Below, piece after piece: positions 16,141 to 41,443 of a stretch of 64,000 bases of DNA; the stretch's first letter is position 1; each line of letters starts with the position of its first letter. Source of the DNA: a bacterium BMS3Bbin10 (GTDB taxonomy: Bacteria > Pseudomonadota > Alphaproteobacteria > Rhizobiales > Methyloligellaceae); contig BDTT01000113.1 in assembly GCA_002897995.1 (NCBI GenBank), forward strand, positions 33,932-97,931, written 5' to 3'. Both the position numbers and the translations under genes were made by a program. The notes beneath the pieces were generated by a model, which worked only from the letters and a program-made list of their open reading frames with translations, was not told the origin of the DNA and did no database searches.

Positions 16141-16153
16141 TGCCCTCGCCTCC

Positions 16154-16981
16154 TCACTTCAGTCCAGCCAGGAAACTCACCAGGACTTCCAGTTCCGAAA
16201 CATACAACTGCTCGCCCATGCCCTCCGGCATCTGGTCCGGCTCGAAGCCCTCGGCAATATCGGCGTTGGGATCGAGGATTGAACGGCGCAGATAATCCCG
16301 GTTGCGGAGGGCGCCGATCTTGGAGAGGTCCGGCCCGATCTCGCCGCCCACGCCATTGATCATGTGGCACGCGTCGCAGGTGAACATGGCGATCAGTTTC
16401 TCGGGATCGCTGATTGCTTCGCGCGGCTCGGCCTCTGCCACGTCGGCTTCTTCACCGCCTTCTTTTTTCTTCCCCAGATCCTTGGGAATCTCGACGGTGA
16501 CCTCGGCGCCGCTGCTGTCCTGGAGATAGGCGACGACGGCGGTAATTTCGGCTTCATCAAGGCGAATGCTGCCGCCGGACACATCCGGCATGGGGCTTTC
16601 GGCGTCGTTGGTGCCCTTCTTGCCAAACCCGGCGACGACAAAGGCCGAAGGCTTGACCAGGGACTCAATCAGATATTCCTCGATGTTCGTCGCTTCACCC
16701 TTGTAGCGGGGGTCCTTGAGCCGCTGCTGCGCAACTTCGCCGATCGTATCCAGCAGGGGCGCGCGGCCAAGATTATTGTGGCAGAGCGTGCAGGTGCCCT
16801 TGCCGCTGAAAAGCTTCTCGCCCACGGCGATGAACTGATCCATGGTCATCGAGCCGAGGTCGAGCTTTTCCTCCTTGGGCGGCGGCGCCGGCTCGATCTG
16901 CGGTATGCCGAAGTTGGAATACCCGGCGAAGAAGCCAATGGTCAGCAGCGAAAAAACTATTACGGAGAGGAACTGCCGCAT
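16154..16981 (-). CDS. Di-heme cytochrome c (module A)
   Basis: CTLCH and CDACH; N-terminal TM/signal. Confidence 0.85.
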   Translation of the reverse strand: MRQFLSVIVFSLLTIGFFAGYSNFGIPQIEPAPPPKEEKLDLGSMTMDQFIAVGEKLFSGKGTCTLCHNNLGRAPLLDTIGEVAQQRLKDPRYKGEATNIEEYLIESLVKPSAFVVAGFGKKGTNDAESPMPDVSGGSIRLDEAEITAVVAYLQDSSGAEVTVEIPKDLGKKKEGGEEADVAEAEPREAISDPEKLIAMFTCDACHMINGVGGEIGPDLSKIGALRNRDYLRRSILDPNADIAEGFEPDQMPEGMGEQLYVSELEVLVSFLAGLK

Positions 16982-16987
16982 CGCCGC

Positions 16988-22172: not shown

Positions 22173-23137
22173 CAGTGACCCTCCGGTATGCGCGGCGTCT
22201 TCTGGGCCAGGTCGTACTCGGCGAGGATGATCTTCCAGCGCTCTTCCTCGGTGAGGCTGAGCTTCCATTCAGGCATGGCCGAATCCCACGGCGTCGCCTC
22301 AGGGGGCAGGCCCGGACCGCCATTGGCGACCCGCCAGAACGTGTAGCCCACGACGATGGTTTCGATGGTGCCGTTGTCGTTGAAATTGAGGGGCCTGAGC
22401 TTGAACCCGTCGGCCATCGGACCATCGCCGGCGACGCTGTCGCCGTGGCAGGCCCGGCAATTCATGGAATACAGGGCGCGGCCCTCGAACAGGTTCTTCT
22501 CCATGAGCGCCGCTTTTGCCGTCTCGGCATCCACCTTGCCGGATTTCAACTGCGCCAGGAACTTCTTCATCGGCTCCACGGGGACGAACTCGAGCACATG
22601 GCCCGGGTCGGTTTCTTCCATCCAGCGCTCCACGTCCTCGCGCACCTGCGGGACGAATTCGATCTCGTTAGCCTTGGCCTGTTCGACAAAGGCGCTGACG
22701 TCGGCGTCCGTGGGGTTGGTAAACGGGTTCTCCTTCGTCTCAAAACTCCTCGGGAAGTTCGACGATGGATGCTGGATGCGCAGCGACGCCGGCACTTCCG
22801 CCTTCGGCACCTTGATCTCATAAACCTGCCAGCCAACCAGCACCGGCACCGCCGCCAGGATCACGGTGCGGGGGATTTTGCCGTAGCCGCCGCGCAGGAA
22901 CTTCCTGACCGGCCTGAGGAAGTCACTGAGTCCCTCGTCGGAAAAGGTGACGAACAAGAACAGCGCGATGATGGTGAGCACCATATAGATGAACATCAAG
23001 GCGCCGGGGACAGGCAGCGGGAAGGGCAGCGTCGTGACCTCGCGGGAGACGGCGGGGATGCCCCACTTCACCAGCGCGTAGACGAGCACCAGAGTTATCA
23101 CCATCGACAGAAAGCTGCCAATTTTCAGTTTCTTCAT
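22172..23137 (-). CDS. Membrane-anchored mono-heme cytochrome c (module B)
   Basis: TM segments; CRACH; TFWRVANGGPGLPPEATPW shared with module A. Confidence 0.85.
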   Translation of the reverse strand: MKKLKIGSFLSMVITLVLVYALVKWGIPAVSREVTTLPFPLPVPGALMFIYMVLTIIALFLFVTFSDEGLSDFLRPVRKFLRGGYGKIPRTVILAAVPVLVGWQVYEIKVPKAEVPASLRIQHPSSNFPRSFETKENPFTNPTDADVSAFVEQAKANEIEFVPQVREDVERWMEETDPGHVLEFVPVEPMKKFLAQLKSGKVDAETAKAALMEKNLFEGRALYSMNCRACHGDSVAGDGPMADGFKLRPLNFNDNGTIETIVVGYTFWRVANGGPGLPPEATPWDSAMPEWKLSLTEEERWKIILAEYDLAQKTPRIPEGH

Positions 23138-23192
23138 GACCGCTCGCCCATGACTGGTTTTTCCAAAACTTGCGCCATCGGATTTCCCTCGC

Positions 23193-24182
23193 CTATTGCT
23201 CCGCCTTCGGTTTCGGCTTTTGCAGCATCAGGAAGGATAAAATGTCCTGATAGTCCTTGACCGTCATGGCCTCGGCCAGGTCGTCCGGCATGACGCTCTT
23301 GGTCTCGTCCGTCTTGATTTGCTTGATATTCTCCTTGAGAATCGTGACCACGTCGCCATTCGCCTTGGTGATGTCTATCTCGCCGGCCTCGTCGCGGGTC
23401 TTCAGCCCGATGGTCTGGCGGCCTTCCTTGTCGATGACGACATAGGTCTCGAAGCCCTTGGTCAATGATTTCGCCGGCCGCAGGATAGATTCAGAGATAA
23501 ATTTCAGTCCCTTGGCGCTGATACCGGAAAGATCGGGGCCGACCTCGCCGCCTTCCCCGTTCAATGTATGGCAATCCAAGCAGTTGTCCTCAAAGACGAC
23601 AGCGCCTTCGCCCGGGTCGCCGCCGCCGGCCGCTGCCGCCGCCTTGATCTTGGAGTAGAATTTCTGTGTGACCTCGCTTGGCGCAGTGTCAATCGCCTCC
23701 ATGTCGAGATCACCGCCCAGCGACATCATATAGGCGGTCACCGCCTTGATTTCCTTCAGGCTCAAGGAGATGGGGGGCGCGTAAACGACCGCCATTTCGT
23801 TCTTGTAGCCCTTGACCACATAGGCGCCGGGACTGGCCAAACTCTCGACGATGTAATCGACAGCGGTGAATTTTGTTCCTTCCTTTTCCGCACGCTCCTT
23901 GGCCCGCTCCACGGCCCGCGCGCCCATTGGCAGTGGGAACTTCTCGCCGAACTGGCCATGATTGGGGCCGCGAACGGCGCTCCCCTGACCGCCGACGCTG
24001 TGACAGGTGAAGCAGCGGCCCTTGCCCCAGTAAATGGCCTCGCCGCCTTCCGGGCTGATATCAACCGCAGCGCTGGTTCTTTTGCCGCCGCCGATGAGCT
24101 GGGTAACGGAATAGCCGATCCACAGATACACTCCAAGCACGACGAGCAGGAAAGGAAAAACCCGGGTAACCACGACATTCAT
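23193..24182 (-). CDS. Di-heme cytochrome c (module B)
   Basis: CFTCH and CLDCH, DNCLDCHTLNGEGGEVGPDLSGI; start trimmed to MNVVVTRVFPFLLVVLG. Confidence 0.85.
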   Translation of the reverse strand: MNVVVTRVFPFLLVVLGVYLWIGYSVTQLIGGGKRTSAAVDISPEGGEAIYWGKGRCFTCHSVGGQGSAVRGPNHGQFGEKFPLPMGARAVERAKERAEKEGTKFTAVDYIVESLASPGAYVVKGYKNEMAVVYAPPISLSLKEIKAVTAYMMSLGGDLDMEAIDTAPSEVTQKFYSKIKAAAAAGGGDPGEGAVVFEDNCLDCHTLNGEGGEVGPDLSGISAKGLKFISESILRPAKSLTKGFETYVVIDKEGRQTIGLKTRDEAGEIDITKANGDVVTILKENIKQIKTDETKSVMPDDLAEAMTVKDYQDILSFLMLQKPKPKAEQ

Positions 24183-24186
24183 GGCG

Positions 24187-26325
24187 TCATTCCTCCTTCT
24201 TGGAGGCGACACCGCCGAGCCAGAACATAAAGGCGCAGCCGATCATGAACAGGAGCACGGCCGCGCCGACCTGCTGCGTCATAACGAAATTACTCGGCGT
24301 ATAGGCCCATTCGGAGGTGTCGCGCATAACCCCGAAAATGTGCCAGTCGCCGCGCAGCCCGGACCGGATGAAGCCCATGAGGCCCATATTCATGGTGATG
24401 ATGAATGTGAGCAGCAGCAGCGCGTATTGCGAGCGATTGCTCATCCTGCCCCATTGGAATTCACCTAAGGATTTCGCCCGCTTGAACAGGAAGACGTCGA
24501 TGACGGAAACCAGGATCAGGCAGCTTATCAACTGAATGAACTGCGCGACGGCGACGTTGCGGAGCACCGGCGAGGCCTTCTCCATGACGACGAAGCCCCA
24601 GACGCCCAGGAACACCGCGACGTTAAAGGCGGTGACGGCCAGATAGAGCACCTGCCCCAGTTTGCCCCGGTCCATCAGCGCCAGAACGATGGCAACCACA
24701 CCGACGGCGGCCTCGAAGACCAGCAGATAGCCGATCATGCGGATGTACTGGGCCCGGTCGGCCGGCAGATCGAGCGAGCCGGGATCCATGGTCAGCATGG
24801 TCACCGCGTATTGCAGCACCAGCGCGATCGCCGCCAGGCCGACGACAAGGATGGTGATCCGGGCGCCCCTGCCCTGGTCGCGTATGGAGACGACCTCCAG
24901 CATATTGCCCCGGCGATAGAGCAGGAAGGAGAAGAATGTCGCCAGGATGATCAGGTTGACCACCGCGTTTTTGGCCGGCATCAGCCCCAGATATTTGAGC
25001 ATGGGATGGAACTGGCTGCCGCCCATTTCACCGACCTCCTGGCCGCTCAGCGGCAGGTTGTGAGGAGTCAGCCAGATGGCGAATGAGAGGATCAGCGCCA
25101 GCAATATGTATTTGATGAACTTGTAATAGCGTTCGGCGCCCGGGATGCGGGTCATGCCGCTCCACAGATAATAGTTGGAGATGACGAACAGCGAGCCCAC
25201 CAGCATGGCCTGGATGATGAAGGTCCAGGAAAAATCGCCGCCCATCATGTTGTTGCCCATGATTGCGCTGGTCGAATAAACTTCGCGGCCAAGATAATAG
25301 CCGGCAAAGGGCAGCGGGATCAGCGCCGCGATGGCGACCAGATTGGAAATGTAACCCATCCAGTCATAGTGCGCCTTCTCCTCCATCGTCTTGGCGCTGA
25401 GGAACTTGACGGCGGCATAGGAACCCGCGACCAGTCCGCCGAAGGCCATATTGCCGAGCATGCGATGGACCGCGATGGGGGTGGCCAGGATGTTCTCAAA
25501 GGCCTCCCAGACGGTGCCGACAAAGTTTCCTTCCCCGTCGACGCCGACGGGACTCATCATGAAGCCGGCCCAGCTGTTGGCCAGTTGCATGATGGCGGTG
25601 CCAAATACGTTCAGGAGAATGCCGATAAAGATGTGGGATGATTTAAGATCCTTGATGATCAGCAGCCCGACGGCCGTCGGCGCGATATAGAGAAGCAGGA
25701 TGAACCAGCGCGTATCGACCCGCATCTCCCCGCCGATCAGGCCGAATGCAAAAGCCACTCCGAACGCGCCCACGATCAGCCCAAGGGCTTTGAACAGCCG
25801 CTGAAGATTCGGCGCGAACGGCTTGTCGCTGCTCAGCAGTTTCCAGCCGTAATAATAGAGATAGAGCGCGAAGGTCTCGCCGAAGAACAACAGCGCATAC
25901 ATGAACATGACGTCTTTGAAGATGCCCGCCATATAGCCCATGAATGTCGGGTAGAGAGTGAACAGCGCAAAGGCCAGCAGCCCGCCCAGCGCCGCCGTGG
26001 TGGCGTAGGCGACGCTCAGCAGGCTGGTGAATTCATAGGCCAGCTTGTCGAATTTGGGATCTTTTTTCTTCCAGCCGATGACCTCGATGATCACCGCGAA
26101 CAACGGCACGCCGAGGACGAATGCGCCGAAGAACAGATGCATCTGCGCCAGGAACCAGACGAGACGCCGGGAATCGAGCCCGACGAACTGGCGGTAGACA
26201 TTCTCCTCCTGGGCGAAAGCCGGGGCCGTGAGGACGAACATTGCGACCGCGCCAGACACGATGGCGCACCATGCCAGATAGCGGCGCGTGGAAATGGCGC
26301 CTTTGCCGTGTCGATCTGCCATCAT
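24187..26325 (-). CDS. Cytochrome bd oxidase subunit I (CydA)-like multi-TM protein (module B)
   Basis: AQMHLFFGAFVLGVP, FFGETFALYLYYYGW, ANSWAGFMMSPVGVD, TPIAVHRMLGNMAFGG. Confidence 0.8.
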   Translation of the reverse strand: MMADRHGKGAISTRRYLAWCAIVSGAVAMFVLTAPAFAQEENVYRQFVGLDSRRLVWFLAQMHLFFGAFVLGVPLFAVIIEVIGWKKKDPKFDKLAYEFTSLLSVAYATTAALGGLLAFALFTLYPTFMGYMAGIFKDVMFMYALLFFGETFALYLYYYGWKLLSSDKPFAPNLQRLFKALGLIVGAFGVAFAFGLIGGEMRVDTRWFILLLYIAPTAVGLLIIKDLKSSHIFIGILLNVFGTAIMQLANSWAGFMMSPVGVDGEGNFVGTVWEAFENILATPIAVHRMLGNMAFGGLVAGSYAAVKFLSAKTMEEKAHYDWMGYISNLVAIAALIPLPFAGYYLGREVYSTSAIMGNNMMGGDFSWTFIIQAMLVGSLFVISNYYLWSGMTRIPGAERYYKFIKYILLALILSFAIWLTPHNLPLSGQEVGEMGGSQFHPMLKYLGLMPAKNAVVNLIILATFFSFLLYRRGNMLEVVSIRDQGRGARITILVVGLAAIALVLQYAVTMLTMDPGSLDLPADRAQYIRMIGYLLVFEAAVGVVAIVLALMDRGKLGQVLYLAVTAFNVAVFLGVWGFVVMEKASPVLRNVAVAQFIQLISCLILVSVIDVFLFKRAKSLGEFQWGRMSNRSQYALLLLTFIITMNMGLMGFIRSGLRGDWHIFGVMRDTSEWAYTPSNFVMTQQVGAAVLLFMIGCAFMFWLGGVASKKEE

Positions 26326-27143: not shown

Positions 27144-29405
27144 TTATCCTTGTCCTTCGCGATCCGGAACCTCCGCGGTCCGAACCGGATGTGAACAGTT
27201 CAGTTCCTCCAATGCTTCGATGGCGACGGACCAAATTCGCTTGCGATCGGGGTTCTGGAGTATATCGACAAACTGGGCGCTGGCCCGGGTGGCGTCCAGA
27301 TCCCGCAACAAACGGGCTGCCAGCCGCCCGTGATAGCCCTCGAATGAGAGGGCAAAATCGACCAACAGCTCGACAGTGCCGTCGCCACCGACGCCGGCAA
27401 TGGCTTCCGCGGCGCTCAGGCGCACGGATGGATCGGGATCGTCGAGCAGCGCCTCGATCTCCGAACCGACCCGGCCCAGGCGGAAAAGCGCACGAACCGT
27501 TTCGGTGCGTACAAAACTGTCTTCATCGCCGATCTGCTCGACCAGAAAAGCCGGCGCCGCTTCGCCGCCAGCCGCGGCCAGGGCGCGGATCAGGAGAAGT
27601 TTCAGGTCCCGGTCCGCCTCCGCCGCCGTGGCCATCAGGATTTCCGTGACCGTATCGGGAAGCGGACTTAAATGCTCGCCAATGCGGGCCAGCGAGTCAG
27701 CCGCCGCCAGACGCAGCTCGGCGTCTCCGTTTTCGAGAGCGCCCGCCAGTTCATGTGCCACGTCGGCATGATGAAGATCCCCCAGAACCCTGGCTGCAAA
27801 GTGGCGGATATCTTCATGCAGCACCACATCCGGCGACAGCGGCATGCGTTTTTTGCCCCTGATGCGCTTCGCCAGGGCCAGGCGCTCCATGTCCATCGGA
27901 GTCAATTCGACGCCTTCTTCCGGCAACCCCACAACCTCGCGCATTTCGGGCGCGTCGTCGAGGATTGCGCTCATGGTCGAAGTCGGAAACGCACCGGCGT
28001 CCTCTTCGTTTTCCGCCACGCTCGCTGACGCGGGCTCGCCCTCTTCTTCGCCCGGATCTTTCGGGGCGGCGGTCCCGGCTTCCGTGTCATCGCCGGCCTC
28101 GGGCTCGTAACCGCCCCGCAGGGCGAAAAGCAGCGCCTCACCGGCGGCGTTGGGCCAAACTGTATCGGCCCGGGCCAGCCGCGCCAGGGCCGGCATGGTT
28201 TCCAGGCGGATCGGCCGCTCCTCGTCACCGATCATGCCCGCAAGCGCTTCCACCGCCCGCTCGCCGCCGGCCGCGGCCAGCCCCTGGAGCGCACCACGGC
28301 GGGCGTCAATGGGCCTGGCGGTGTCGCCAAGCAATGGGATCAGGTCGTCCGCCGCCTCTTGCGGTACGAGCGCGGCAAGGGCGCGGGCGGACGCCGCCGC
28401 GACCGCGCCGGTTCCTTCTTCCAGCTTTTCCCGGAGCGCCGCGACCAGAGCTTCGTCCGCGGGTAAATCCTGTGTGTCCCTGAGTGCCCTCAGAACCGCC
28501 AGCTGCACGGAATTCGAGGTGTCGTCGATCATGGCCGCGAGGCGGTCCGGATGCTGCCCGCCGATAAGGCGAACGGCCTCGGCGCGGACCGTTGCGTCGG
28601 GATCTTCGAGCAGCGCCGCCAGGCGGCCGTCCGCCGGATCCCGCGCCACCAGCGCTTCCATGGCGGCGCGGCGCACTTCGGCGGACTGATCGGCGAAAGC
28701 GCGCGCCAGCGGGCCGGCCGCTTCCGCGGTGCCGGAGGCGGCCAGGGCCGCCGCGGCGCGGCGGCGCAGGCGCACGGAATCTTCGTCAAGAAAACAGGCG
28801 AGCGCCTCGATGCCCGGCTGTCCCATCCGTGCCAGAGCCTTAAAAGCCGCCTCGGTCATGTCCTGGCCATCTTCGAGCTGCATGGCTGCGACGATATCGG
28901 GCACGGCCTCGCCGGCGTCAAGTTCCGCCAGTGCGTCAACCGCCTTGATCTGGATATCGACCCAATCGTCCCAGCCGCTGGAGTAGAATTCCTCTTCATC
29001 CCAGATGATTTCTTCGTCGCGTCCCTTGACCATGCGCTGAAGCCAGGGAATGACCCGCTTGTCCTGCAGTTTCGCCAGCGTCTCGATGGCCGCCAGCTTG
29101 ACCTCCGTACAGGGATCGCCGAGCAGGTTCTCGAAGAGCTGCTGGCCGGCCTGCGGATCGGCCAGTTCCGAAAGCGCCTCGGCGGCATCGGTGCGGACGT
29201 CTTCGTCTTCGTCCAGCAGGGCCGCGATCAGGGGCTGAACGGCGGCCGGAGCCCCGATGCGCCCGGAGGCCCGGGCCGCCAGACAGCGGTGCACGTCGAC
29301 ACCATCACTGAGGATCCCGTTCAGCACCTGGCATACTTCGTCCAGTACCGGCTGGGAAACCGGCGCCTTTTCCCGGTCCGTAGGGTCCTTGTGATGGATA
29401 TTCAT
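27144..29405 (-). CDS. HEAT/PBS-lyase repeat protein
   Basis: Repeated units such as VQPLIAALLDEDEDVRTDAAEALSELAD and LLDDPDPSVRLSAAEAIAGVGG; no signal peptide; start trimmed. Confidence 0.85.
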   Translation of the reverse strand: MNIHHKDPTDREKAPVSQPVLDEVCQVLNGILSDGVDVHRCLAARASGRIGAPAAVQPLIAALLDEDEDVRTDAAEALSELADPQAGQQLFENLLGDPCTEVKLAAIETLAKLQDKRVIPWLQRMVKGRDEEIIWDEEEFYSSGWDDWVDIQIKAVDALAELDAGEAVPDIVAAMQLEDGQDMTEAAFKALARMGQPGIEALACFLDEDSVRLRRRAAAALAASGTAEAAGPLARAFADQSAEVRRAAMEALVARDPADGRLAALLEDPDATVRAEAVRLIGGQHPDRLAAMIDDTSNSVQLAVLRALRDTQDLPADEALVAALREKLEEGTGAVAAASARALAALVPQEAADDLIPLLGDTARPIDARRGALQGLAAAGGERAVEALAGMIGDEERPIRLETMPALARLARADTVWPNAAGEALLFALRGGYEPEAGDDTEAGTAAPKDPGEEEGEPASASVAENEEDAGAFPTSTMSAILDDAPEMREVVGLPEEGVELTPMDMERLALAKRIRGKKRMPLSPDVVLHEDIRHFAARVLGDLHHADVAHELAGALENGDAELRLAAADSLARIGEHLSPLPDTVTEILMATAAEADRDLKLLLIRALAAAGGEAAPAFLVEQIGDEDSFVRTETVRALFRLGRVGSEIEALLDDPDPSVRLSAAEAIAGVGGDGTVELLVDFALSFEGYHGRLAARLLRDLDATRASAQFVDILQNPDRKRIWSVAIEALEELNCSHPVRTAEVPDREGQG

Positions 29406-29481
29406 GGATAAAATCCTCGGTCCAAACGCAGTTACGGGCCCGGCTGGACGCAATGGCCCCCAGCCGAGCCCGCAATAACTA

Positions 29482-32157
29482 TCAGATGATGTCCCTCGGT
29501 GCGAACGACATCGAACGGAATGTTCTCTTGTAGGGTGACTCGCCGATCTTCTTCACATTGGCGACCCCCATCTTGTAGTTGTAGTTACCGCTGATCCAAT
29601 CGACGATACGGCCTTCCAGGGCATTCGCCGGTTGCGACGTATGCAGGAAGTCCATGTAGATGATGCCCTTCTTGATGTGGCGCGTGACCATGGCGACACC
29701 GGTGACGGCGGCCCGTGTCAGTTCCACATTTCCGGCTTTCATCTGACCGGAGAAGGAATAGTCGCTCCCCTCCACGCCAAGGATCGTTTCCTTCAGGGAC
29801 GGCACGCGGTCGGAATAGACCATCAGCATGTCGCCGCTCTCGATACCGCGTTCCTTCGCGTCATCGGGATGCATTTCGACATAATTGTCGGGCCAGCGCT
29901 GAACGATGTAGGGCCTGCGCCGGTCGTCGAAACCGGACTGCCAGCGTTCGTTGGTGCGCCCGGACGTGCACCACAGTTCACTGCCCTTCGGCTTCATCCA
30001 TTCCCAATAGTCCGAGAACAGGGACCAGGGCGACTTCTGGATGTTGCAGCGACCGGTCTGGCTGTTGAAGTGCGTCAGCTTCTTGTTGAACATGTTGGCG
30101 CCCCTGGGACCGGTTCCCTTCAATTTGAGCGTCGTGTCGTGAAGCCGTTTGGAACCGACCAGGGAACCGTCGTCCCTCATGAAGACAGGCCCCTGGATTC
30201 CGTTGGTGCCGAATTCACCAAGCTTCTGATGCAGGGTCTTGCCCTCGCGGTGGGCGGCGACCTTGATCATGTTGAAGTCCTTGCGGCTGCCGCGCGAGAA
30301 GCGCGCCGATTCCTCGGCGACGTCGTTGGTGTCCTTCCAGTCGAAGCCGTCGAAGCCCATGCGCTTCGCCAGTTGGGCGATGATCCACCAGTCCGGCTTG
30401 GCCTCGCCGGGCGGATCGTAGAACTGGTTGTAGAGCCGGAGACGCCTCTCCCCGTTGGCCCGCATGAAGGTGTCCTCGCCCCATGTGGCCGCCGGGAAGA
30501 TAATGTCGGCGTAGCGGTTGCCGATCGGATCAACCAGATAAATGTCCTGGTTAATGACCACCATGCCGCCGGAGTCGGCGCGCTTTTTCAGGGTTTCGAT
30601 GATGTCCTGCTTGTCGTAGGAGCGCACCTGATGGGGATTGGCCACGGTCAGTTCCTCGAACCGCTTGGCCAGTTGCTGCGAACCGCACATGGCCTGGATC
30701 CATGTCGTGCCGATGACATGCGCGAAGCGCGTATGCCCCGACATCAGCCAGGTATCGGTATCCAGGGCGCGACGCCTGCGTCCGGGCACCTTCATCGGCG
30801 ACTTGTTGCGCGGGTATTTGCCGCCGCGCTGACCGCCGCGCTGATGACCGCCCGCCCTGCCGACAACCTGGCCGGGCCTGCCGCCGGCGCCGACGATGAT
30901 GGCCAGGGCCCCGATCGCCTCGGTGTTGCCGGTGTTATTGGACCAGTAGAAGCCCTTCTCGATCATGATCGAGGTTTTCGGCCGCTTGCCGTTCTTCTTC
31001 GGCTTGGCCATCCATTCGGCCGCCGTCTGGATCTTCGCCACGTCGATGCCGGCCAGCCTGGCGGCGTTTTCAGGCTTGAATTCGTCCTGGGCCAGGAGCC
31101 ACTTCTTCCAGTCCTCGTATCCCTTGGTCTGGAATTTGCCCCAGGTGGTGCGCCACTGCCACGGCGTGTTGCGGGTGCCCTGACCGAAGCCGGAGCTGGA
31201 GCCCCACTTGTTGTTGACCCAGTCCTTGATCCATTTCGCATCCTGCCAGCCATTCTCGGCAATGATCCGCGCAATGGCGTTGACGACCAGCAGATCGGTG
31301 CCGAGATTGACATCGAGCCACAGTCCGCCGTTCTTTTCCGCATAGGCCACGCCGGCGGTGCGGCGCGGGTTCATCATGATGCATTTCTGACCGTTCTGGA
31401 TGCCCTTCATAATCCACTGGGTCCAGAGGATGGTCTTTGTCTCATAGGGGTCCGTGCCGCAGATCAACAGAGTCTCGGCATTCATCCAATCCTCGTAGGC
31501 CGGGCCGAAATTATCGAAACCGGCGTCACGGAAGCCCGGCGTCGAGGACACGTCGGAGGGCGTGTCGTGGAAGGTGAAGTTGGCCGTGTTGATGTGGCGC
31601 AGTGCGAATTTGGTGATGGCGTAGGTGTTCTCGATGAACTGATAGGAGTAGGTCTTGACGCCAAAAGCGTTGGCGCCGTGCTTCGTGCGCACGTAATTGC
31701 CGACCTCCGCCGCAATATCGAGAGCGAAATCCCACGGAACCGGCTGAAGGATGCCGTAGATTCGCAACATCGGCGAACTCAACCGGTCACGGGTGGGGGT
31801 TTGCGGATTGTAGCATTTCTGCGCGATGCAGCCGCCGCGCAGGCTCGAATCGCCGTCGGTATTGACGAACTTCGTATCCTTGTCGGGAACGATCACGACG
31901 TGGTTCGGTTTGCCGTTATGCAGCACAATATTATGCTGGTTGGGCGCCACCCAGGGGCCCAGTACTTCTACCGGAAAATCGACCCCGAAGGCATTCTGAT
32001 CGGCCTTTGGACCGCCTTTGTTATTGCCCGCTACAGGCCAACGATAGACCTTGAAGCCGCAGGCGACAATGCAGTAGTCGCAGGCCGTGGTGATCACTTC
32101 CGCGCCCTTGGGAGGGAGGGGAACATTGGTTTCTGGAATATAGTACGGAGTAGACAT
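29482..32157 (-). CDS. Molybdopterin oxidoreductase, arsenite oxidase/iodate reductase (AioA/IdrA) family catalytic subunit
   Basis: N-terminal TACDYCIVACGFKVYRWP (CxxCxxxC), SLRGGCIAQKCYNPQTPTRDRL, AGGHQ segment, 891 aa, adjacent Rieske subunit. Confidence 0.85.
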   Translation of the reverse strand: MSTPYYIPETNVPLPPKGAEVITTACDYCIVACGFKVYRWPVAGNNKGGPKADQNAFGVDFPVEVLGPWVAPNQHNIVLHNGKPNHVVIVPDKDTKFVNTDGDSSLRGGCIAQKCYNPQTPTRDRLSSPMLRIYGILQPVPWDFALDIAAEVGNYVRTKHGANAFGVKTYSYQFIENTYAITKFALRHINTANFTFHDTPSDVSSTPGFRDAGFDNFGPAYEDWMNAETLLICGTDPYETKTILWTQWIMKGIQNGQKCIMMNPRRTAGVAYAEKNGGLWLDVNLGTDLLVVNAIARIIAENGWQDAKWIKDWVNNKWGSSSGFGQGTRNTPWQWRTTWGKFQTKGYEDWKKWLLAQDEFKPENAARLAGIDVAKIQTAAEWMAKPKKNGKRPKTSIMIEKGFYWSNNTGNTEAIGALAIIVGAGGRPGQVVGRAGGHQRGGQRGGKYPRNKSPMKVPGRRRRALDTDTWLMSGHTRFAHVIGTTWIQAMCGSQQLAKRFEELTVANPHQVRSYDKQDIIETLKKRADSGGMVVINQDIYLVDPIGNRYADIIFPAATWGEDTFMRANGERRLRLYNQFYDPPGEAKPDWWIIAQLAKRMGFDGFDWKDTNDVAEESARFSRGSRKDFNMIKVAAHREGKTLHQKLGEFGTNGIQGPVFMRDDGSLVGSKRLHDTTLKLKGTGPRGANMFNKKLTHFNSQTGRCNIQKSPWSLFSDYWEWMKPKGSELWCTSGRTNERWQSGFDDRRRPYIVQRWPDNYVEMHPDDAKERGIESGDMLMVYSDRVPSLKETILGVEGSDYSFSGQMKAGNVELTRAAVTGVAMVTRHIKKGIIYMDFLHTSQPANALEGRIVDWISGNYNYKMGVANVKKIGESPYKRTFRSMSFAPRDII

Positions 32158-32170
32158 CTTTTGTGTCTCC

Positions 32171-32761
32171 CTATCCTTGCAGATTGTCGTAACGGCCGTA
32201 GATCAGGCCAAACACGCCAACGGCGTAGATGTCGTCACCATCGAGCTCAAGCAGCACCTGCGGAAGGCTTTGGTAGGCCTGACCGGAAATCAGAATGCCG
32301 TGCCGGGTCAGGTCGTAAGTGGAAAGATGCAGCGGGCAGGCGCCCATCGACTTGGTTTCCCCCTTGTAGGAACCCGCCAGATCGCCTCCCTGATGCGTAC
32401 AGAAGGAATTGAAAGCGACCACGTCTTTCTGCGGCCCGATGCCGCCGCCGGCCTCCGTACCGAGCTTGACCAGCATGGATTGTGCGTATTCGCCTTTGTC
32501 GGGATACTCGAATTCGACCGGTACGTCATCTTTCAGTTCACTCAACTTGGCGATCTTCTTGCGCGGATAGGTGGCGACCTCCGCCGGCACCTTGGCCGCC
32601 ACTGAAGTGCCCGGATTCAGGGTGACTATGACCGTAGCCGACGCCAGACCGGAGGAGAGCAGAAACTTCCGCCGTGACATCAGGCATTTTCCAGCCGGGC
32701 TGTCCTTCTTCGATGGCGCTTTGGGCGCGCCGGGTTCGTGGGTCTTTATCTGATCTGTCAT
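32171..32761 (-). CDS. Rieske [2Fe-2S] small subunit, AioB/IdrB-like, Tat signal
   Basis: SRRKFLLSSGLASATVIV Tat-type signal; CTHQGG ... CPLHLSTYD. Confidence 0.88.
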   Translation of the reverse strand: MTDQIKTHEPGAPKAPSKKDSPAGKCLMSRRKFLLSSGLASATVIVTLNPGTSVAAKVPAEVATYPRKKIAKLSELKDDVPVEFEYPDKGEYAQSMLVKLGTEAGGGIGPQKDVVAFNSFCTHQGGDLAGSYKGETKSMGACPLHLSTYDLTRHGILISGQAYQSLPQVLLELDGDDIYAVGVFGLIYGRYDNLQG

Positions 32762-32775
32762 TTTTCAAATTCCCT

Positions 32776-33939
32776 TTAATTCGTATTCGCTACGGCAGGC
32801 AGCGGCGCATAGGGAGGAAGTTTCGGTGTCGGAATCTTGATCTCCTCGCCACTCAGCGATTCCAGGAAGGCAATCAGATCTTCCTTCTCCTTGTCGCCCA
32901 GCTTCAGCGGCTTCAGGAGTTTCGCCTTGTTCTTCGCCATGGTGCCGTCGGTGAACTCGTTGGACCCGCCTCCCGCATTGTAGAATTCGACGATTTCATC
33001 GAAATCGAAGAAGGAGCCATTGTGCATGAATGGCGCCGTGTAGGCGGTGTAGCGCAACGGAGCCGTGCGGAATTTGCCCAAGTCGGATTTCTGCTTGGTC
33101 CTGTAATAGAGCCCCGCATCATCCTTGATCTTGCGGTACATTTCCTCGGTCACGCCCTTGGCGTACTGCTCGTAGCGGAAGGTGACCTGGGCCATGCCGT
33201 TATCCAGCCATTCCTCGGCGCGCGGAACGCCAAGGTTGTAATATTTCTGGTCGCTCAGCAGCGGACCGTTATGGCACTCGACGCACCTGGCCTTGCCCTG
33301 GAACAGCTTGAGGCCGCGTTTCTGCTGTTTCGTCAGCGCGTCCTTGTCGCCGCGCATATATTTGTCGAACGGCGTATTGTTGTGAATCATCGTCCGCTCG
33401 AAGGCGGCGATCGCCTTCCAGGCGTTGTTCACCTTGGGCCAGTCGTCGCCGAACACCTCGTTGAAGCGCTTGACATATTCGGGGATAAAGGCGAGCCGCG
33501 CCTCGATCATGTCCCGCTCGCCGTTGCCGGATATCGCGCCCAGCGCCGCGCTCGGCGCCTGCTTTTCAAGCGATCCGGAAGAGCCGGCCCAGAACAGCTT
33601 GCCGAGATAAGCGGAGTTGACGACCGTCTGGCTGTTGCGCCAGTGGACCACGCCCGGATAGCCGCGCGATAGCGGATCGTTGAAGCCCCAGCCCTGTTTC
33701 TGCGCATGGCAATCGGCGCAGGAAACGGATGCGTCGCCGCCGATACGCGTATCGAAGAACAACAGCTTGCCAAGTTCAATTTTCTCCGGGGTTTGCTTGT
33801 TATCGAGTGGAATCGGTGGCGGCCCGAGGGCGGCCAGCGGTGGGTTCACATCGGCTGACGCGGGGGATCCAAGCCCTAGGCCCGCGAGGCCGAAGGAAGT
33901 TGCGATGATCGCGAGGGATAGTGTCTTGCCCTTTTTCAT
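32776..33939 (-). CDS. Di-heme cytochrome c peroxidase/MauG family (IdrP-like)
   Basis: VSCADCHAQKQGWG, ARCVECHNGPLLSDQKYYNLGVP, PLRYTAYTAPFMHNGSF. Confidence 0.88.
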   Translation of the reverse strand: MKKGKTLSLAIIATSFGLAGLGLGSPASADVNPPLAALGPPPIPLDNKQTPEKIELGKLLFFDTRIGGDASVSCADCHAQKQGWGFNDPLSRGYPGVVHWRNSQTVVNSAYLGKLFWAGSSGSLEKQAPSAALGAISGNGERDMIEARLAFIPEYVKRFNEVFGDDWPKVNNAWKAIAAFERTMIHNNTPFDKYMRGDKDALTKQQKRGLKLFQGKARCVECHNGPLLSDQKYYNLGVPRAEEWLDNGMAQVTFRYEQYAKGVTEEMYRKIKDDAGLYYRTKQKSDLGKFRTAPLRYTAYTAPFMHNGSFFDFDEIVEFYNAGGGSNEFTDGTMAKNKAKLLKPLKLGDKEKEDLIAFLESLSGEEIKIPTPKLPPYAPLPAVANTN

Positions 33940-33949
33940 TGCCTTGTTC

Positions 33950-35122
33950 CTAATTCCTCTTGTTCAGCCAATCTTTGATCGCCGTGTAATTCACGTTGAT
34001 CTTTTCTTTCCAGACATGCTCCGGCCCGGTCAGGGGCTCTCCTGAAAGGGACTTCAGGAAGACCACCAGATTGGCCTGTTCTTCCCTGCTCAGGTTGAGC
34101 GGTTTGATGCGCGGATCCTTGTTGGGATCACTGCCGCCGCCCCGGTTGTAGAAGGCGACAACGTCTTCCAGCGTCTTGATCATGCCGTTGTGCATATAGG
34201 GCGCCGTCTGGGTCAGCTCGCGGAGCGTCGGCGTCATGAATTTGCCGATATCCGTGCCGTCCGACTTGTGGGTGCGGACGTGAGCTCCGACATCGCGGCG
34301 GATATTCATGTAATTCTCGATGCCCATGAACATGCTGAACGACACATAGGTGATATGCCGCATGGGATTCGACCAGATTTCCGGATTTTCAGGCACACCC
34401 GTATTATGCGCCTTGTCGTCGGAAAACCTCGGTCCGGAGTGGCATGCGGCGCAGCCGGCCTTGCCCTTGAACAAATCGAAGCCGCTCTTGGCGGCGTCCG
34501 ACAGATTTCCGGTATCGAAGGGCGCGCCCCGTGAGGTGAGGGTTTTCAGATACTCGGGAATCGCCTTGCGGATAGAGCCGTTGGAGGGTTCGCCGTAACC
34601 CGCCTCCTTGAACATCTTCACATAGATCGGGTCCTGTTTGACGCGCTCCTGCATCAGGCGCATGTCCATGTTCATGGAGTAGGTCTCGGTGATCGATTCG
34701 CGCGTTACGTCATTGAGGTTGGTGCCGATCCGCCCGTCATGGAACCACGCCGCTTTTTGCGCGGTGTTAATAAGCGTCGGCGTGTTCCGGAAGCCATCCG
34801 ACCCCGGATAGGCCTTGGACAGCGCCAGGCCGTCAGCAAATCCTTTTGCCGGAATATGGCATGTGGAACAACTGATTGCGGCGTCACCGGACAGCCGCGG
34901 ATCGAAAAACAGCCGCTTGCCCAGAGCTGCTTTTTTTGCGTCGACCTTCATCTGCTTCACGGGACCGAAATCACTCGCCAATACCGGCGATGCGGCAATT
35001 GCGACGCCCACCGCCAAGGCGATGCGCCAACCAATTCCCGACGAAATTCTTCTATTCATCGCTAAACCCTTCCAAAAAAGAATGACCGCACCGAAAAACA
35101 CTCTCTTCGCGTTTTCGGGCAT
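33950..35122 (-). CDS. Di-heme cytochrome c peroxidase/MauG family (IdrP-like)
   Basis: ISCSTCHIPAKGFADG, GCAACHSGPRFSDDKAHNTGVP, PTLRELTQTAPYMHNGMI. Confidence 0.88.
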   Translation of the reverse strand: MPENAKRVFFGAVILFWKGLAMNRRISSGIGWRIALAVGVAIAASPVLASDFGPVKQMKVDAKKAALGKRLFFDPRLSGDAAISCSTCHIPAKGFADGLALSKAYPGSDGFRNTPTLINTAQKAAWFHDGRIGTNLNDVTRESITETYSMNMDMRLMQERVKQDPIYVKMFKEAGYGEPSNGSIRKAIPEYLKTLTSRGAPFDTGNLSDAAKSGFDLFKGKAGCAACHSGPRFSDDKAHNTGVPENPEIWSNPMRHITYVSFSMFMGIENYMNIRRDVGAHVRTHKSDGTDIGKFMTPTLRELTQTAPYMHNGMIKTLEDVVAFYNRGGGSDPNKDPRIKPLNLSREEQANLVVFLKSLSGEPLTGPEHVWKEKINVNYTAIKDWLNKRN

Positions 35123-35547: not shown

Positions 35548-36711
35548 TCAGGCGCTGTTTCTGACCTTGAGAATCCGGTCGTGGAGTTGCAGCGTCTCAT
35601 GGGTCGGTTCAAGGCCGTATTCCTCGCGCAGTTCGCGCCGCCAGGAGCGGAAATGCGATTCGGCCCAGTCCGGGCGGCCAAGGGCGACAAGGTTCTCCAT
35701 CAGGTGGCGCATAAAGTTCTCGCGGCAGGGATCGCGGAACAGCGCCGTGCGGCAAACCTGCGCAGCTTCGGAGAATTTCCGCTGATCGCCATAGCATTGC
35801 GCCAGGCCGGCCAGCATTTCCAGATGGATTTCGCGCAGACGCTCGCGTTCCCCGGCACACCAGTCGGCGTAGGGCTCGTCCTCCAGATAGTCGCCGCGGC
35901 AAAGGTCCCGGGCTTCCTCGAAATGGGCCAATGCCTCCTGCAAATCCCCATTGTGCAGCCGGTCCCAGCCGTCCGATACGAGCGTGATGAAGATATCCGA
36001 ATCAAGCCATATTGCATCGCGCCGCAGGAGATACGACTTGCCCACGGTTTCGATCGCTTCATTTTTGAAGCTGCCGGCACGCAGTTTGCTCCGCAAAAAC
36101 GAAACCGTTACCTTGAGCCGCTCCCACCCGCGATCCGGGTCGGTATCGGGCCACAACCATTCCATCAGCCGGTCGCGGTGAACCGGGCGGCCCACATGAC
36201 TGATCAGGATTTTCAGCAGGGTCGCCGCCTGTTTCCGTCTCCATTTGTCGACATCCAGTCCCGCGCCGGCGACGGCGAGAGCGAAATGCCCCAGGGCGAA
36301 TATGCGCAAAGGCTGCGACCGGGGTCCATCGGCCTTGATGGCGCCGGGAGCACGTATGAAGATGACCGCCACCGCGGCGCCATTGTCGGGATCGCGGACA
36401 TTCCCCGGCACGACCAGGGTGCTGAAACCGGCGGGGATCATGTTTCCGTCCTTGTGACGCACCCGGCAGGCCGACATCGACCATTTCTCCCCGAGCGCCA
36501 GGCAGGACTTGCCCTCGCACAATGCCGAACACAGGGGTTCGCCGCTGGTGTAGAGCGCCTGCAGGATCTGGCCGCATTTCTTGCCCAGCGCTTCCTCGGT
36601 CGAATACCCCAGGAGGCTCCGTGCGCTCGCGTTCCAGGCGACGATGCGCAGGTTTTCATCGACTGCGAATGCCGGGTCGGACGCAATCTCAACCAGATCG
36701 GTCGTTTTGAT
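35548..36711 (-). CDS. PAS-BTAD (SARP-like) transcriptional regulator
   Basis: ORF track begins at 36522 (TTG), but the frame stays open upstream giving PAS-like DPAFAVDENLRIVAWNASARSLLGYSTEEALGKKCGQILQ; then winged helix (RRKQAATLLKILISHVGRPVHRDRLMEWLWPD) and BTAD domain. Confidence 0.75.
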   Translation of the reverse strand: MKTTDLVEIASDPAFAVDENLRIVAWNASARSLLGYSTEEALGKKCGQILQALYTSGEPLCSALCEGKSCLALGEKWSMSACRVRHKDGNMIPAGFSTLVVPGNVRDPDNGAAVAVIFIRAPGAIKADGPRSQPLRIFALGHFALAVAGAGLDVDKWRRKQAATLLKILISHVGRPVHRDRLMEWLWPDTDPDRGWERLKVTVSFLRSKLRAGSFKNEAIETVGKSYLLRRDAIWLDSDIFITLVSDGWDRLHNGDLQEALAHFEEARDLCRGDYLEDEPYADWCAGERERLREIHLEMLAGLAQCYGDQRKFSEAAQVCRTALFRDPCRENFMRHLMENLVALGRPDWAESHFRSWRRELREEYGLEPTHETLQLHDRILKVRNSA

Positions 36712-37047: not shown

Positions 37048-38727
37048 ATGACCCCACAAGCAACAGGCGCCGCGCATCAACTGGCGGATGACAGCTCCCG
37101 GACGCCGGAAGCCGCCGCGGTTACATTCAAGCGGATGCTCGTCTGCCTCGATGCATCGGATTACGCCAACCGGGCGCTGAGCGAATCCGTGCGCCTTGCC
37201 GGGTCGGCCGAAGGGACGGTCATAGGCATTCACGCCTATGCCGCCAAACTGCACGATCACCGCTTCCGTCAGATGGAAGGCGGCCTGCCCGAACGCTACC
37301 GCAAGGAGCAGGAGATGGAGAACCAGCGCGAGGTCCACGACACGCTGATCACCCGCGGGCTCGGGCTCATTTCGGACAGCTATCACGATGAAGCGCAGAT
37401 CGTGTGCGACGCCGGCGGCGTACCGCTTGAGCGCCTGAGCCCGGAAGGCAAGAATTACCGCCGTATCGTCGAAGCGGCCGCAAGCGGCGATTACGACGTC
37501 ATTGCACTGGGAGCGCATGGGCTCGGTATCGTGCCGGGGGCTTCGGTTGGCACCGTTTGCGAACGTGTCGTTCGCCGCGTCCCCATCGACGCGCTTGTGA
37601 TCCGGGACCCCGAGCGCGCCATAGGCGACGGCCCGCTGGTGGTCGGCATGGATGGCTCTCCGCGCTCCTTCGGCGCCTTGATGCTGGCTTTCGATATTGC
37701 GCGCCGCACCGGCGCGCAAGTGCATGCGGTCGCCGCCTATGATCCCTTTTACCATTATGTGGCGTTTGAGAAGATCGCCGGCGCGCTCAGCAAGGAAGCG
37801 GCTGAGGAGTTCCGCTTCAAGGAACAGGAATCGCTGCATGAGGAAATCATCGATTCCGGCATCGCGCGCATCTATCAGTCCCATCTCGACGTCGCCAAAA
37901 CCGTCGCCGGGGACGAGGGCGTGGAACTGACGACGGAGCTGCTGGAAGGCAAGCCCTACCAGACGATCATCAAATATCTGCATCAGGTGAACGCCAGCCT
38001 GCTGCTGGTCGGCAAGACGGGTGTCCATGCCGATCCGGACCTCGATATCGGCGGCACGTCGGAGAACCTGCTCCGCAAGGCGCCCTGCCATATCTGGCTC
38101 GGGCAGAACACCTATACGCCGCCCTTCGAGGCGGTGGCGCGCGAGACCATCACCTGGACCGAGGAAGCCGAGGTGAAGATGGAAAACGTGCCGGAGACGG
38201 CACGCTCCATGGTCCGCATCGCAATATTGCGGCTGGCGCAGGAAAGCGGCCACACGGTCATCACATCGAATTTGATTGATGAGGCAACCGCGCGCTTTTG
38301 TCCTGATCGCGGCGGACGCATGGAAACGCACAACCCCACTCCCTGGTCGAAAGAGGCCAAGGTCCTGCTCGACAAGATCGGCGATCCGATGGCGGCGCCC
38401 AGCGTTCGTCTTCGGGCCGAGAAACGCGCCCGCCGCGAGAATTCAGACACGGTTGAAGCGGATCATGTGCGCCCCTTCCTCGAAGAGGGGGCGGCGGAAA
38501 CTCCGGACTGGGAGACCGCGGCCCTGGCGCGTTTGTCGCGTGTGCCGGAAATGGTGCGCGGAGCGGTCCGGCGCCGGGCGGAAGCCTATGCCATTGAATC
38601 GGATGCGGCCCGGGTCTCGCTTGAAATCGCCGAAGAGGCGATTGCCGAATCCAGGGAAGTCATGGGCGATACGATGTGCGCCGGCGGGCACAAGCTTGGC
38701 GCGTCCTGTCCGGCCGGCGAGTCATGA
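37048..38727 (+). CDS. Tandem universal stress protein fused to C-terminal PCP_red-like repeats
   Basis: Two USP domains (FKRMLVCLDASDYANRAL; PLVVGMDGSPRSFGALMLAFDIARRTGA) followed by WTEEAEVKMENVPETARSMVRIAILRLAQESGHTVIT and two further similar segments; ATG at 37048 chosen over the long ORF start. Confidence 0.8.
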   Translation: MTPQATGAAHQLADDSSRTPEAAAVTFKRMLVCLDASDYANRALSESVRLAGSAEGTVIGIHAYAAKLHDHRFRQMEGGLPERYRKEQEMENQREVHDTLITRGLGLISDSYHDEAQIVCDAGGVPLERLSPEGKNYRRIVEAAASGDYDVIALGAHGLGIVPGASVGTVCERVVRRVPIDALVIRDPERAIGDGPLVVGMDGSPRSFGALMLAFDIARRTGAQVHAVAAYDPFYHYVAFEKIAGALSKEAAEEFRFKEQESLHEEIIDSGIARIYQSHLDVAKTVAGDEGVELTTELLEGKPYQTIIKYLHQVNASLLLVGKTGVHADPDLDIGGTSENLLRKAPCHIWLGQNTYTPPFEAVARETITWTEEAEVKMENVPETARSMVRIAILRLAQESGHTVITSNLIDEATARFCPDRGGRMETHNPTPWSKEAKVLLDKIGDPMAAPSVRLRAEKRARRENSDTVEADHVRPFLEEGAAETPDWETAALARLSRVPEMVRGAVRRRAEAYAIESDAARVSLEIAEEAIAESREVMGDTMCAGGHKLGASCPAGES

Positions 38728-40031
38728 CCGGAACGGTCGAGGCCCCCTTTCTGGTGGCGCTCAACCTGACGCGCCGGTGCAATCTGAAATGCGCCCATTG
38801 CTATCTCGATGCCGGAACACTCGAGCGCGGCGACGCCGATGAACTCGCCACATCGGAAGTTTATGCGCTCCTGGACGAAATCGTGGCGCTGTCGGAAGAA
38901 ACCATGGTGGTGCTGACGGGCGGCGAGCCTCTGCTGCGCCCGGACATCATGGAAATCGCCGCCCACGCATCGGGTTTGGGTCTGATGGTGGTGATGGGCA
39001 CCAACGGCGTGCTGCTTACCGGCAAGCGGGTTGCCGCCCTCAGACAAGCCGGCGTCAGCGCGGTCGGGATCAGCGTCGATTCTCTCGACGCCGGCCATCA
39101 TGACGGATTTCGCGGCGCGCCCGGCTCATGGGCCAAGACGATTTCAGGGATAGACGCCTGCCGCCGCGCGGGCCTGATGTTTCAGGTTCACTTCTCGGTC
39201 ACCGACGACAACGCCCATGAACTGGAATCGATGATCGAGTTTTGCCGGTCTTCGGGCGCGGCCGTTCTGAATGTATTTTTTCTGGTTTGCACCGGACGCG
39301 GCGAGACCTACACCAACATTTCCCTCGAAACTTACGAAAATGTCCTGCGGCGGGTGGCGCAAGCCGCGCGCGATGAGAAGCAATTGCTCGTCCGGGCCCG
39401 CTGCGCGCCACATTTCAAGCGCATGGCTCTGGAGATGGACCCGCCGCTGCCGGTTACACTGATTCACGGCTATGAAGCCGGGGGATGTATTGCGGGCACG
39501 CGCTATTGCCGGGTCACGCCCACGGGGGGAATTACCGCCTGTCCCTATATCGAGGACTCCGTTGGCTCGGTACGCGATACGCCTTTTGCGGAAATCTGGC
39601 GCGATGCGCCCATGTTCAACGCCCTGCGCGCGCCCAAACTGGAGGGCCGCTGCGGGACTTGCGAATATTCGAAACTCTGCGGAGGATGCCGCGCCCGCCC
39701 GTTTGCCAAAACCGGCGACTTGATGGGCGAGGATTTTCTTTGCGGGTATCAGCCCGCAGGCGGCGGCACAATCGAACCCATGCTGGCGCAGAGCGGCGTT
39801 CCCTGGACCAGCGAGGCCGAAGACCGCCTGGCGCAGGTGCCCGGCTTCGTGCGCCGCTTTGTGAGGATGCGGGCCGAAACCCATGCGCGGGAAATCGGCG
39901 CCGATACCGTAACGGCGGGGCATCTGGATGAGCTCGCCAGAAGGCGGTTTGGCGATGCCCTGCCCTTCAGGCGGCCCGAGGCAATGGCGAAAGGCTCTCC
40001 CCCGCCGGCAGGCGAGAGCGGACGCAAATGA
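38724..40031 (+). CDS. Radical SAM/SPASM protein (NirJ/AhbC/AhbD-like) with C-terminal PCP_red-like domain
   Basis: LTRRCNLKCAHCYLDA; GRCGTCEYSKLCGGCRARPFAKTGDLMGEDFLCGY; VPWTSEAEDRLAQVPGFVRRFVRMRAETHAREIGADTVTAGHLDELAR. Confidence 0.85.
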   Translation: MTGTVEAPFLVALNLTRRCNLKCAHCYLDAGTLERGDADELATSEVYALLDEIVALSEETMVVLTGGEPLLRPDIMEIAAHASGLGLMVVMGTNGVLLTGKRVAALRQAGVSAVGISVDSLDAGHHDGFRGAPGSWAKTISGIDACRRAGLMFQVHFSVTDDNAHELESMIEFCRSSGAAVLNVFFLVCTGRGETYTNISLETYENVLRRVAQAARDEKQLLVRARCAPHFKRMALEMDPPLPVTLIHGYEAGGCIAGTRYCRVTPTGGITACPYIEDSVGSVRDTPFAEIWRDAPMFNALRAPKLEGRCGTCEYSKLCGGCRARPFAKTGDLMGEDFLCGYQPAGGGTIEPMLAQSGVPWTSEAEDRLAQVPGFVRRFVRMRAETHAREIGADTVTAGHLDELARRRFGDALPFRRPEAMAKGSPPPAGESGRK

Positions 40032-41443
40032 TCGACACACTCATCATCGGCGGCGGCATATCGGGCCTGACGCTCGGCCATGAACTTTTGCGCCGGGGAC
40101 GCAACGTGGTGCTGCTGGAGCGCCAGGTTTCCGTTGGCGGAAACGCCATGTCGGAGCGTATCGGCGGCTATCTGATGGAGCATGGGCCAAGCTCCCTGAA
40201 CGCCACCGCCGAAGACCCGGGCCGGCTTTCAACACGCCTGGGACTGGATGAGAAGCGTGTTTTTCTCGGGCCCGATGTCAAATACCGCTACCTCACGAAG
40301 AACACGCAGCTTTCGGGCATCCCCATCCATCCCCTGGGATTTTTCACCTCGTCCTACCTTTCCCGCCGCGGGCGTCTGGCCATGGCGGGCGAGCTCTTCA
40401 AACCGGCCCGGCAAGAGGGACATGACGAATCCGTCGATGCATTTTTCCGCCGCCGTTTCGGCGCGGAATTTGCCGAACGGGTTATCGACCCGCTGACGGG
40501 CGGGCTGTTTGGCGCGCGATCCACCGACCTCTGCGCCGAAGCGACCTTTCCGGCGCTAGTGGACATGGAGCAACGCCATTCCTCAATCACGGCGGCGGCA
40601 TTTTCGCGCCGTCTGGCGGGCCGGAAAATGCCGGCGCGGCAGCTCTATTCCTGGAGCGGCGGAGTGGGCGCGTTGCCGCGAGCGCTGGCGGCGCAGATGA
40701 ACCGCTGCATTCGCACCGGTATCACCGTCAGGCGAATTGAGGCTCTGCCATGGGGCTTCCGGGTCGACGCGGGGGCCGCGGGCATGATCGAGGCGCGATC
40801 CGTCGTTCTCGCCACCCAGCCCCATGTCGCGGGCATGCTGCTCGAGACAATCGATGAAACCGCCGCGCGGGCCGCGCTCGAAATCCCGGCCCCGCCGATT
40901 GCCGTCGTCTTTCTGGGTTACCGGCGCGCCCAGGTCGCTCATCCCCTGCACGGATTGGGTTATCTCACGCCCGAGAGCGAAGGCCGGCTGGTCAGCGGCG
41001 CGTTGTTCCCCTCCTCCATGTTTGCCGGCCGCGCGCCGTCAGGTCATGTGGCGCTCGCCGCTTATGTCGGCGGGTCGCGGGCGCCGGACCTTGCGCTGGC
41101 ATCGAAAAATTCACTGATCGGCATTGCGCGCGATGAATTCAGGGATCTCCTGGGTGCAACCGGTGAACCTCAGATCGCGCATGTCAAACAATGGCCGATG
41201 GGGCTGCCGCAGACTTCACTCGGTCATCGCGAAAGGCTGGAGGCGTTCGCCGATGCGGAACATGCGCTGCCGGGCCTGTTTCTGACCGGCAATTATTTCA
41301 CCGGGCCCGGCGTCGCCCACTGTGTGACCCGCGCGTTCGATACCGCCCGCCGGGTCGAGCGGCATCTCCAGTCCGCCGGTGCGGGGACTTCCGCTGCCGG
41401 CGTCCGGCAAGGCAGTGAGCTGCAAGACGCGGCTGAGGGTTAG
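40028..41443 (+). CDS. Protoporphyrinogen/coproporphyrinogen oxidase-like FAD protein
   Basis: IIGGGISGLTLGHELLRRGRNVVLLERQVSVGGNAMSERIGGYLMEHGPSSL; HemY/HemG-type architecture; 4-bp overlap with upstream gene. Confidence 0.82.
   Translation: MIDTLIIGGGISGLTLGHELLRRGRNVVLLERQVSVGGNAMSERIGGYLMEHGPSSLNATAEDPGRLSTRLGLDEKRVFLGPDVKYRYLTKNTQLSGIPIHPLGFFTSSYLSRRGRLAMAGELFKPARQEGHDESVDAFFRRRFGAEFAERVIDPLTGGLFGARSTDLCAEATFPALVDMEQRHSSITAAAFSRRLAGRKMPARQLYSWSGGVGALPRALAAQMNRCIRTGITVRRIEALPWGFRVDAGAAGMIEARSVVLATQPHVAGMLLETIDETAARAALEIPAPPIAVVFLGYRRAQVAHPLHGLGYLTPESEGRLVSGALFPSSMFAGRAPSGHVALAAYVGGSRAPDLALASKNSLIGIARDEFRDLLGATGEPQIAHVKQWPMGLPQTSLGHRERLEAFADAEHALPGLFLTGNYFTGPGVAHCVTRAFDTARRVERHLQSAGAGTSAAGVRQGSELQDAAEG

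Follow-up and report, generated by a model that had tools for sequence, protein, structure and literature searches.

PCP_red is a domain known from chlorophyll synthesis, and the SPASM architecture of radical SAM enzymes is frequent in peptide maturases. NirJ and AhbC have been reported to carry a SPASM motif of the form CX2CX5CX20C (PMC12505453), and hemY next to ahbD is a known gene arrangement for heme b (PMC10548856). The gene order of the iodate reductase cluster idrABP1P2 is an IdrA-like gene and a Rieske gene, followed by two di-heme peroxidase-like genes (PMC8692401). According to PMC10839748, which cites Murali 2021, the non-quinol families of the bd superfamily (OR-C and OR-N) are predicted oxygen reductases that lack experimental confirmation.

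We analyzed a stretch of 64,000 nucleotides, termed the window, whose start is contig base 33932; matches in the genome were converted to window coordinates on this basis. New here are a conserved cassette of genes for a tandem universal stress protein (USP), a radical SAM/SPASM protein (rSAM protein) and a HemY-type porphyrinogen oxidase (PPO), and the link of this cassette to a gene set for a CydA-like protein and an EB_dh protein. The role of the cassette may be to synthesize a dedicated heme for an uncharacterised bd-type cytochrome complex, or to deliver one to it. Literature searches on PCP_red and on the USP/PPO/rSAM combination returned nothing relevant, and no description of the cassette was found in them.

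Results

Three overlapping genes and their PCP_red domains

The three genes lie on the plus strand and overlap by ATGA. The USP gene (37048-38727) shares 38724-38727 with the rSAM gene (38724-40031), which in turn shares 40028-40031 with the gene for the HemY-type oxidase (40028-41443). Three genes joined by 4-bp overlaps had been described in the first-pass annotation, and this description is correct. Divergent from the cassette, a BTAD-domain regulator is encoded on the minus strand (35548-36522); it also adjoins the cassette in four other loci (L129, L134, L137 and L139).

The first gene product (559 aa) is a tandem USP with three C-terminal PCP_red domains. Pfam gave Usp in two stretches (1.2e-35) and PCP_red (PF08369) in three (2e-25, 89 bits), and the closest folds in Foldseek were the tandem USPs Rv2623 and TTHA0350. 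The PCP_red domains of the USP are encoded at 38155-38286 (42.6 bits), 38344-38472 (26.9 bits, E 1.9e-5) and 38509-38640 (41.8 bits). The rSAM protein carries another one at 39804-39932 (55.3 bits), which also matches PDB 2kru and 2ynm by sequence; all four are on the plus strand. Because the gathering cut-off of PF08369 is 32.5 bits, three of the four single domains pass and the middle copy of the USP falls below it, while the USP and rSAM proteins both pass as wholes (rSAM protein, 1.4e-13, 51 bits). Thus, the four PCP_red-like segments noticed in the first-pass annotation were recovered by the HMM at exactly the same starts, with the reservation that the middle USP copy is weak. In an AF2 model, all three segments of the USP, the weak one included, have the same three-helix pattern.

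A genome scan showed that these four segments are the sole significant PCP_red matches in the genome; the next match has an E value of 0.14. Since nothing else matched PCP_red below E 0.1, the genome has neither BchB nor BchZ, and a BchB-type origin of the domain was rejected for this reason. Homologues of the USP have PCP_red in two copies in 44 proteins, three in 10, four in 18 and five in 1. Among 74 USP homologues, the ATP motif G-2X-G-9X-G-S/T is present in 71. In 27 of the 74, the C-terminal 60 residues include a Cys-Pro pair that recalls the heme regulatory motif; such a motif in the USP tail was set aside, because it is limited to these homologues. In other genomes of the class, two further kinds of protein carry PCP_red at the C-terminus, a DUF169 protein (L064:1695-2765) and a flavin-reductase-like protein (L066:8839-9639), and this speaks against a function of the domain that is limited to porphyrins.

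The rSAM protein falls with NirJ2/AhbD heme enzymes

Pfam confirmed both the Radical_SAM and the SPASM domain in the second gene product (435 aa). The CX3CX2C motif of the radical SAM cluster (C19, C23 and C26; 38778-38801) and the SPASM region from C255 to C340 (39486-39743), with CX2CX5CX20C (C310, C313, C319 and C340), are on the plus strand and are invariant in alignment A1. The best NCBIfam scores were those of NirJ2 (TIGR04055, 321 bits) and AhbD (TIGR04545, 311 bits), whereas the PqqE and mycofactocin maturase families gave 126 bits or less. Because both scores are below the equivalog cut-offs (500 bits for each family), the protein is an orthologue of neither NirJ2 nor AhbD. In a tree of 27 rows with long branches and no verified AhbD sequence, the rSAM clade joined the NirJ2-type enzyme of a Paenibacillus ahbAB-nirJ1-nirJ2 operon with support of 87/86, away from NirJ/AhbC-type and PqqE/Nif11 enzymes. 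Foldseek did not discriminate: the best matches of the rSAM model (mean pLDDT 71.5) were PqqE, SkfB and SuiB, and no heme rSAM enzyme was among the PDB matches listed. Judged by HMM ranking, tree and the CX2CX5CX20-21C motif, the protein belongs to the heme-type rSAM/SPASM enzymes (AhbC/AhbD/NirJ), and its relatives are NirJ2 and AhbD rather than PqqE or Nif11-type peptide maturases. The resemblance to heme enzymes suspected in the first-pass annotation is therefore borne out. The protein may act on a tetrapyrrole side chain.

The cassette duplicates or exceeds ordinary heme synthesis

The third gene product (471 aa, plus strand) is a HemY-type FAD porphyrinogen oxidase, which scored 239.7 bits against the protoporphyrinogen oxidase family TIGR00562 (cut-off, 97.85 bits). 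It is the only HemY-type copy in the genome. HemF, HemN, HemJ and the ferrochelatase HemH are all encoded elsewhere, and therefore the cassette is surplus to, or a duplicate of, ordinary heme synthesis. HemQ was not found in the genome. A coproporphyrin-dependent pathway is not assembled here, as the genome is without ChdC/HemQ and the ferrochelatase gene is away from the cluster. Of the heme d1 pathway, which pairs NirJ with nir partner genes, the rSAM part was covered: a search of the genome for a second NirJ/Ahb-type rSAM enzyme, with E up to 1e-40, found none. With the housekeeping enzymes encoded elsewhere, no HemQ and no second enzyme of the NirJ/Ahb type, the cassette constitutes an extra branch.

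Respiratory genes beside the cassette

Two paralogous sets of cytochrome genes, identified by Pfam, lie on the minus strand of the window and are likely clients. The set nearer to the cassette (20514-26325) encodes a CydA-like protein (24187-26325), two c-type cytochromes (23193-24212 and 22172-23137) and a cytochrome c-EB_dh protein (20514-22268); it recurs beside the cassette in other genomes. The other set (13829-18829) likewise encodes a CydA-like protein (16988-18829), two c-type cytochromes (16154-16981 and 15373-16140) and a cytochrome c-EB_dh protein (13829-15376). The two CydA-like proteins are about 51% identical over the best-aligned stretch. As compared with E. coli CydA, equivalents of His19 and Glu107 are kept but the quinol residues K252/E257 are not; the C-terminal half of this alignment is uncertain. 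These features fit the non-quinol bd-superfamily families, as PMC10839748 describes them.

Also on the minus strand, genes for an AioA/IdrA-like protein, a Rieske protein and two MauG-like di-heme proteins (29482-35122) have the idrABP1P2 gene order, and an iodate reductase is predicted here. A HEAT-repeat protein is encoded at 27144-29453 (minus strand), and in many genomes it recurs in the interval that separates IdrA from the cassette.

The cassette is conserved and follows the CydA-like set

When one genome per species was scanned, 332 rSAM relatives were obtained, and 80 loci were kept, whose titles are nearly all alphaproteobacterial. The USP, rSAM and PPO genes are directly adjacent in 71 of these 80 loci. 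Where at least 5 kb of upstream sequence is available (58 loci), a partner cluster, whole or in part, is present in 57: the CydA-like set and/or Idr genes in 54 and only EB_dh or HEAT/o26 parts in 3, with nothing in the remaining one. Three contexts are observed beside the cassette. These are the CydA-like gene with two c-type cytochromes and the cytochrome c-EB_dh protein; idrABP1P2 (more than 20 loci) with the HEAT-repeat protein; and, in about six loci (L095, L110, L115, L119, L128 and L148), type II DMSO-reductase-like alpha/beta genes with an EB_dh protein. More divergent cassettes elsewhere in the phylum (L196 and L198) both have the CydA set. At L197, rSAM and USP genes occur alone, and the 18 kb fetched contain neither a PPO nor a CydA gene; the PPO gene is absent from L069, L112 and L113, where there is room for it. 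Plasmids queried with CydA and the USP gave no match.

Among 385 genomes of the class, the cassette is present in 11 and the CydA-like gene in 11, and 10 have both (Fisher p 7e-18, with shared ancestry ignored). G294 and G372 were left out of the cassette count because their PCP_red domains are on DUF169 and flavin-reductase proteins, and G238, a short contig with a weak USP match only, was also left out. One genome (G044) has CydA but no PCP_red, and its contig ends exactly where the cassette would begin. IdrA is encoded in 12 genomes, eight of which have the cassette. The other four lack CydA as well as the cassette, and several cassette genomes lack Idr. G059 encodes IdrA and, where a contig ends, part of the cassette, and it gave no CydA match. 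Because the distribution of the cassette matches that of the CydA-like set better than that of Idr, we rejected Idr as the sole client.

Discussion

We tentatively propose, at close to an even chance, that the operon encodes a module for tetrapyrrole processing that is dedicated to a cytochrome-c-type CydA-like complex of the bd superfamily with EB_dh heme subunits. This reading is based on the placement of the rSAM protein with NirJ2/AhbD by HMM, tree and motif, on the adjoining HemY-type gene and on the position of the cassette as an extra branch. The CydA-like set is the probable client because of the synteny (a partner cluster, whole or in part, in 57/58 loci), the co-occurrence (10 of 11 for each partner) and the absence of CydA from the cassette-less Idr genomes. 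In the proposed mechanism, the HemY-type oxidase would convert a porphyrinogen, most likely coproporphyrinogen III from the normal pathway, to the aromatised form. After iron insertion, the NirJ2/AhbD-like rSAM protein would cleave or decarboxylate propionate side chains, and this would give heme b, here by a separate route, or else a heme with modified side chains. Because PCP_red is common to the rSAM protein (one copy) and the ATP-binding tandem USPs (two to five copies), we guess that it serves as a tether or for tetrapyrrole hand-over, by which the cofactor would reach the client complex and not the general pool. The first-pass annotation had suggested a tetrapyrrole-modifying system that could supply a modified heme to adjacent cytochromes, with PCP_red as a porphyrin/protein-interaction module on a stress sensor. 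Synteny and co-occurrence back the supply to adjacent cytochromes, and the DUF169 and flavin-reductase carriers speak against a strictly porphyrin-specific PCP_red; that the cytochromes are a CydA-like/EB_dh set had not been recognized.

In the main rival explanation, the cassette is a second route to ordinary heme b and boosts the heme supply of a cytochrome-rich respiratory island. Such a hybrid route would combine HemY as coproporphyrinogen oxidase, the housekeeping ferrochelatase and the rSAM protein as an AhbD-type coproheme decarboxylase, and no modified heme would be formed. The AhbD-type scores, the known co-localisation of hemY and ahbD for heme b (PMC10548856) and the many c- and b-type cytochromes nearby are all consistent with this explanation. 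However, HemF, HemN, HemJ and HemH are already in the genome, and a general heme supply explains neither the closer tracking of the CydA-like set than of Idr nor the PCP_red and USP parts; we consider it rather unlikely. We think it quite improbable that the substrate of the rSAM/SPASM protein is a peptide or a protein, such as a cytochrome subunit, with PCP_red as a general docking domain that has no tetrapyrrole role. The frequency of SPASM among peptide maturases, the Foldseek matches and the DUF169 and flavin-reductase proteins with PCP_red would agree with such a role, whereas the HMM scores, the tree and the neighboring porphyrinogen oxidase oppose it, and no conserved small precursor was noticed among ORFs of at least 80 aa.

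The USP-PCP_red protein might instead act in regulation or quality control in a heme/ATP-dependent manner, with the enzymes recycling or detoxifying porphyrins in connection with oxyanion (iodate) respiration. The ATP motif in 71/74 USPs, the Cys-Pro pair in 27/74 tails and the frequent idrABP1P2 neighbors suit this idea. Nevertheless, four Idr genomes are without the cassette, several cassette genomes are without Idr and the Cys-Pro motif is not general, and hence we judge it very improbable. The linkage can also stem from the transfer of a respiratory island as a unit, with no biochemical need behind it. The reading of the operon as a dedicated module is itself weakened by the loci that lack PPO (L069, L112, L113 and L197), by L197 and G059 without CydA, by G044 without PCP_red and by the DUF169 and flavin-reductase carriers of the domain.

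We know of no assigned heme types for non-quinol bd-superfamily complexes. It is possible, though in our view unlikely, that a cytochrome-c-linked bd-superfamily reductase has as its cofactor an undescribed side-chain-modified heme, which the cassette would make on a scaffold of PCP_red and the USP. If so, this class of oxidase would have a cofactor pathway of its own, much as cytochrome cd1 does with heme d1. A cassette that tracks a bd-superfamily complex and encodes predicted heme-tailoring enzymes offers a testable route to the cofactor of that complex. Moreover, it places PCP_red in a non-phototroph, where a simple system of two proteins allows the function of the domain to be tested.

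Comparison with known systems

AhbD (heme b synthase) and NirJ2 are the best-scoring families for the rSAM protein and have the CX3CX2C and CX2CX5CX2C...C motifs in common with it. In contrast to them, it falls short of both cut-offs by about 180 bits, has an extra C-terminal PCP_red domain and has no AhbA/B/C partners seen alongside. The coproporphyrin-dependent pathway (HemY/CgoX, CpfC, and ChdC or AhbD) resembles the locus in that hemY adjoins an ahbD-like gene (PMC10548856), but this cluster is without ferrochelatase or HemQ and the full protoporphyrin pathway is encoded elsewhere in the genome. The non-quinol OR-C/OR-N members, as described in PMC10839748, resemble the sets found here in a CydA-like protein with the His19 and Glu107 equivalents, in unconserved quinol residues and in c-type cytochromes alongside. 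PCP_red of the DPOR subunits BchB/ChlB and of BchZ (PDB 2kru, 2l09 and 2ynm) is the same domain, both by HMM and by sequence match to solved structures. Here, however, its carriers are a USP and an rSAM protein, the tandem copies number up to five among homologues, and the genome has neither BchB nor BchZ. The tandem USPs Rv2623, TTHA0350 and UspE have the fold and the ATP motif in common with the USP protein, to which the present system adds a C-terminal PCP_red array and an operon with tetrapyrrole enzymes.
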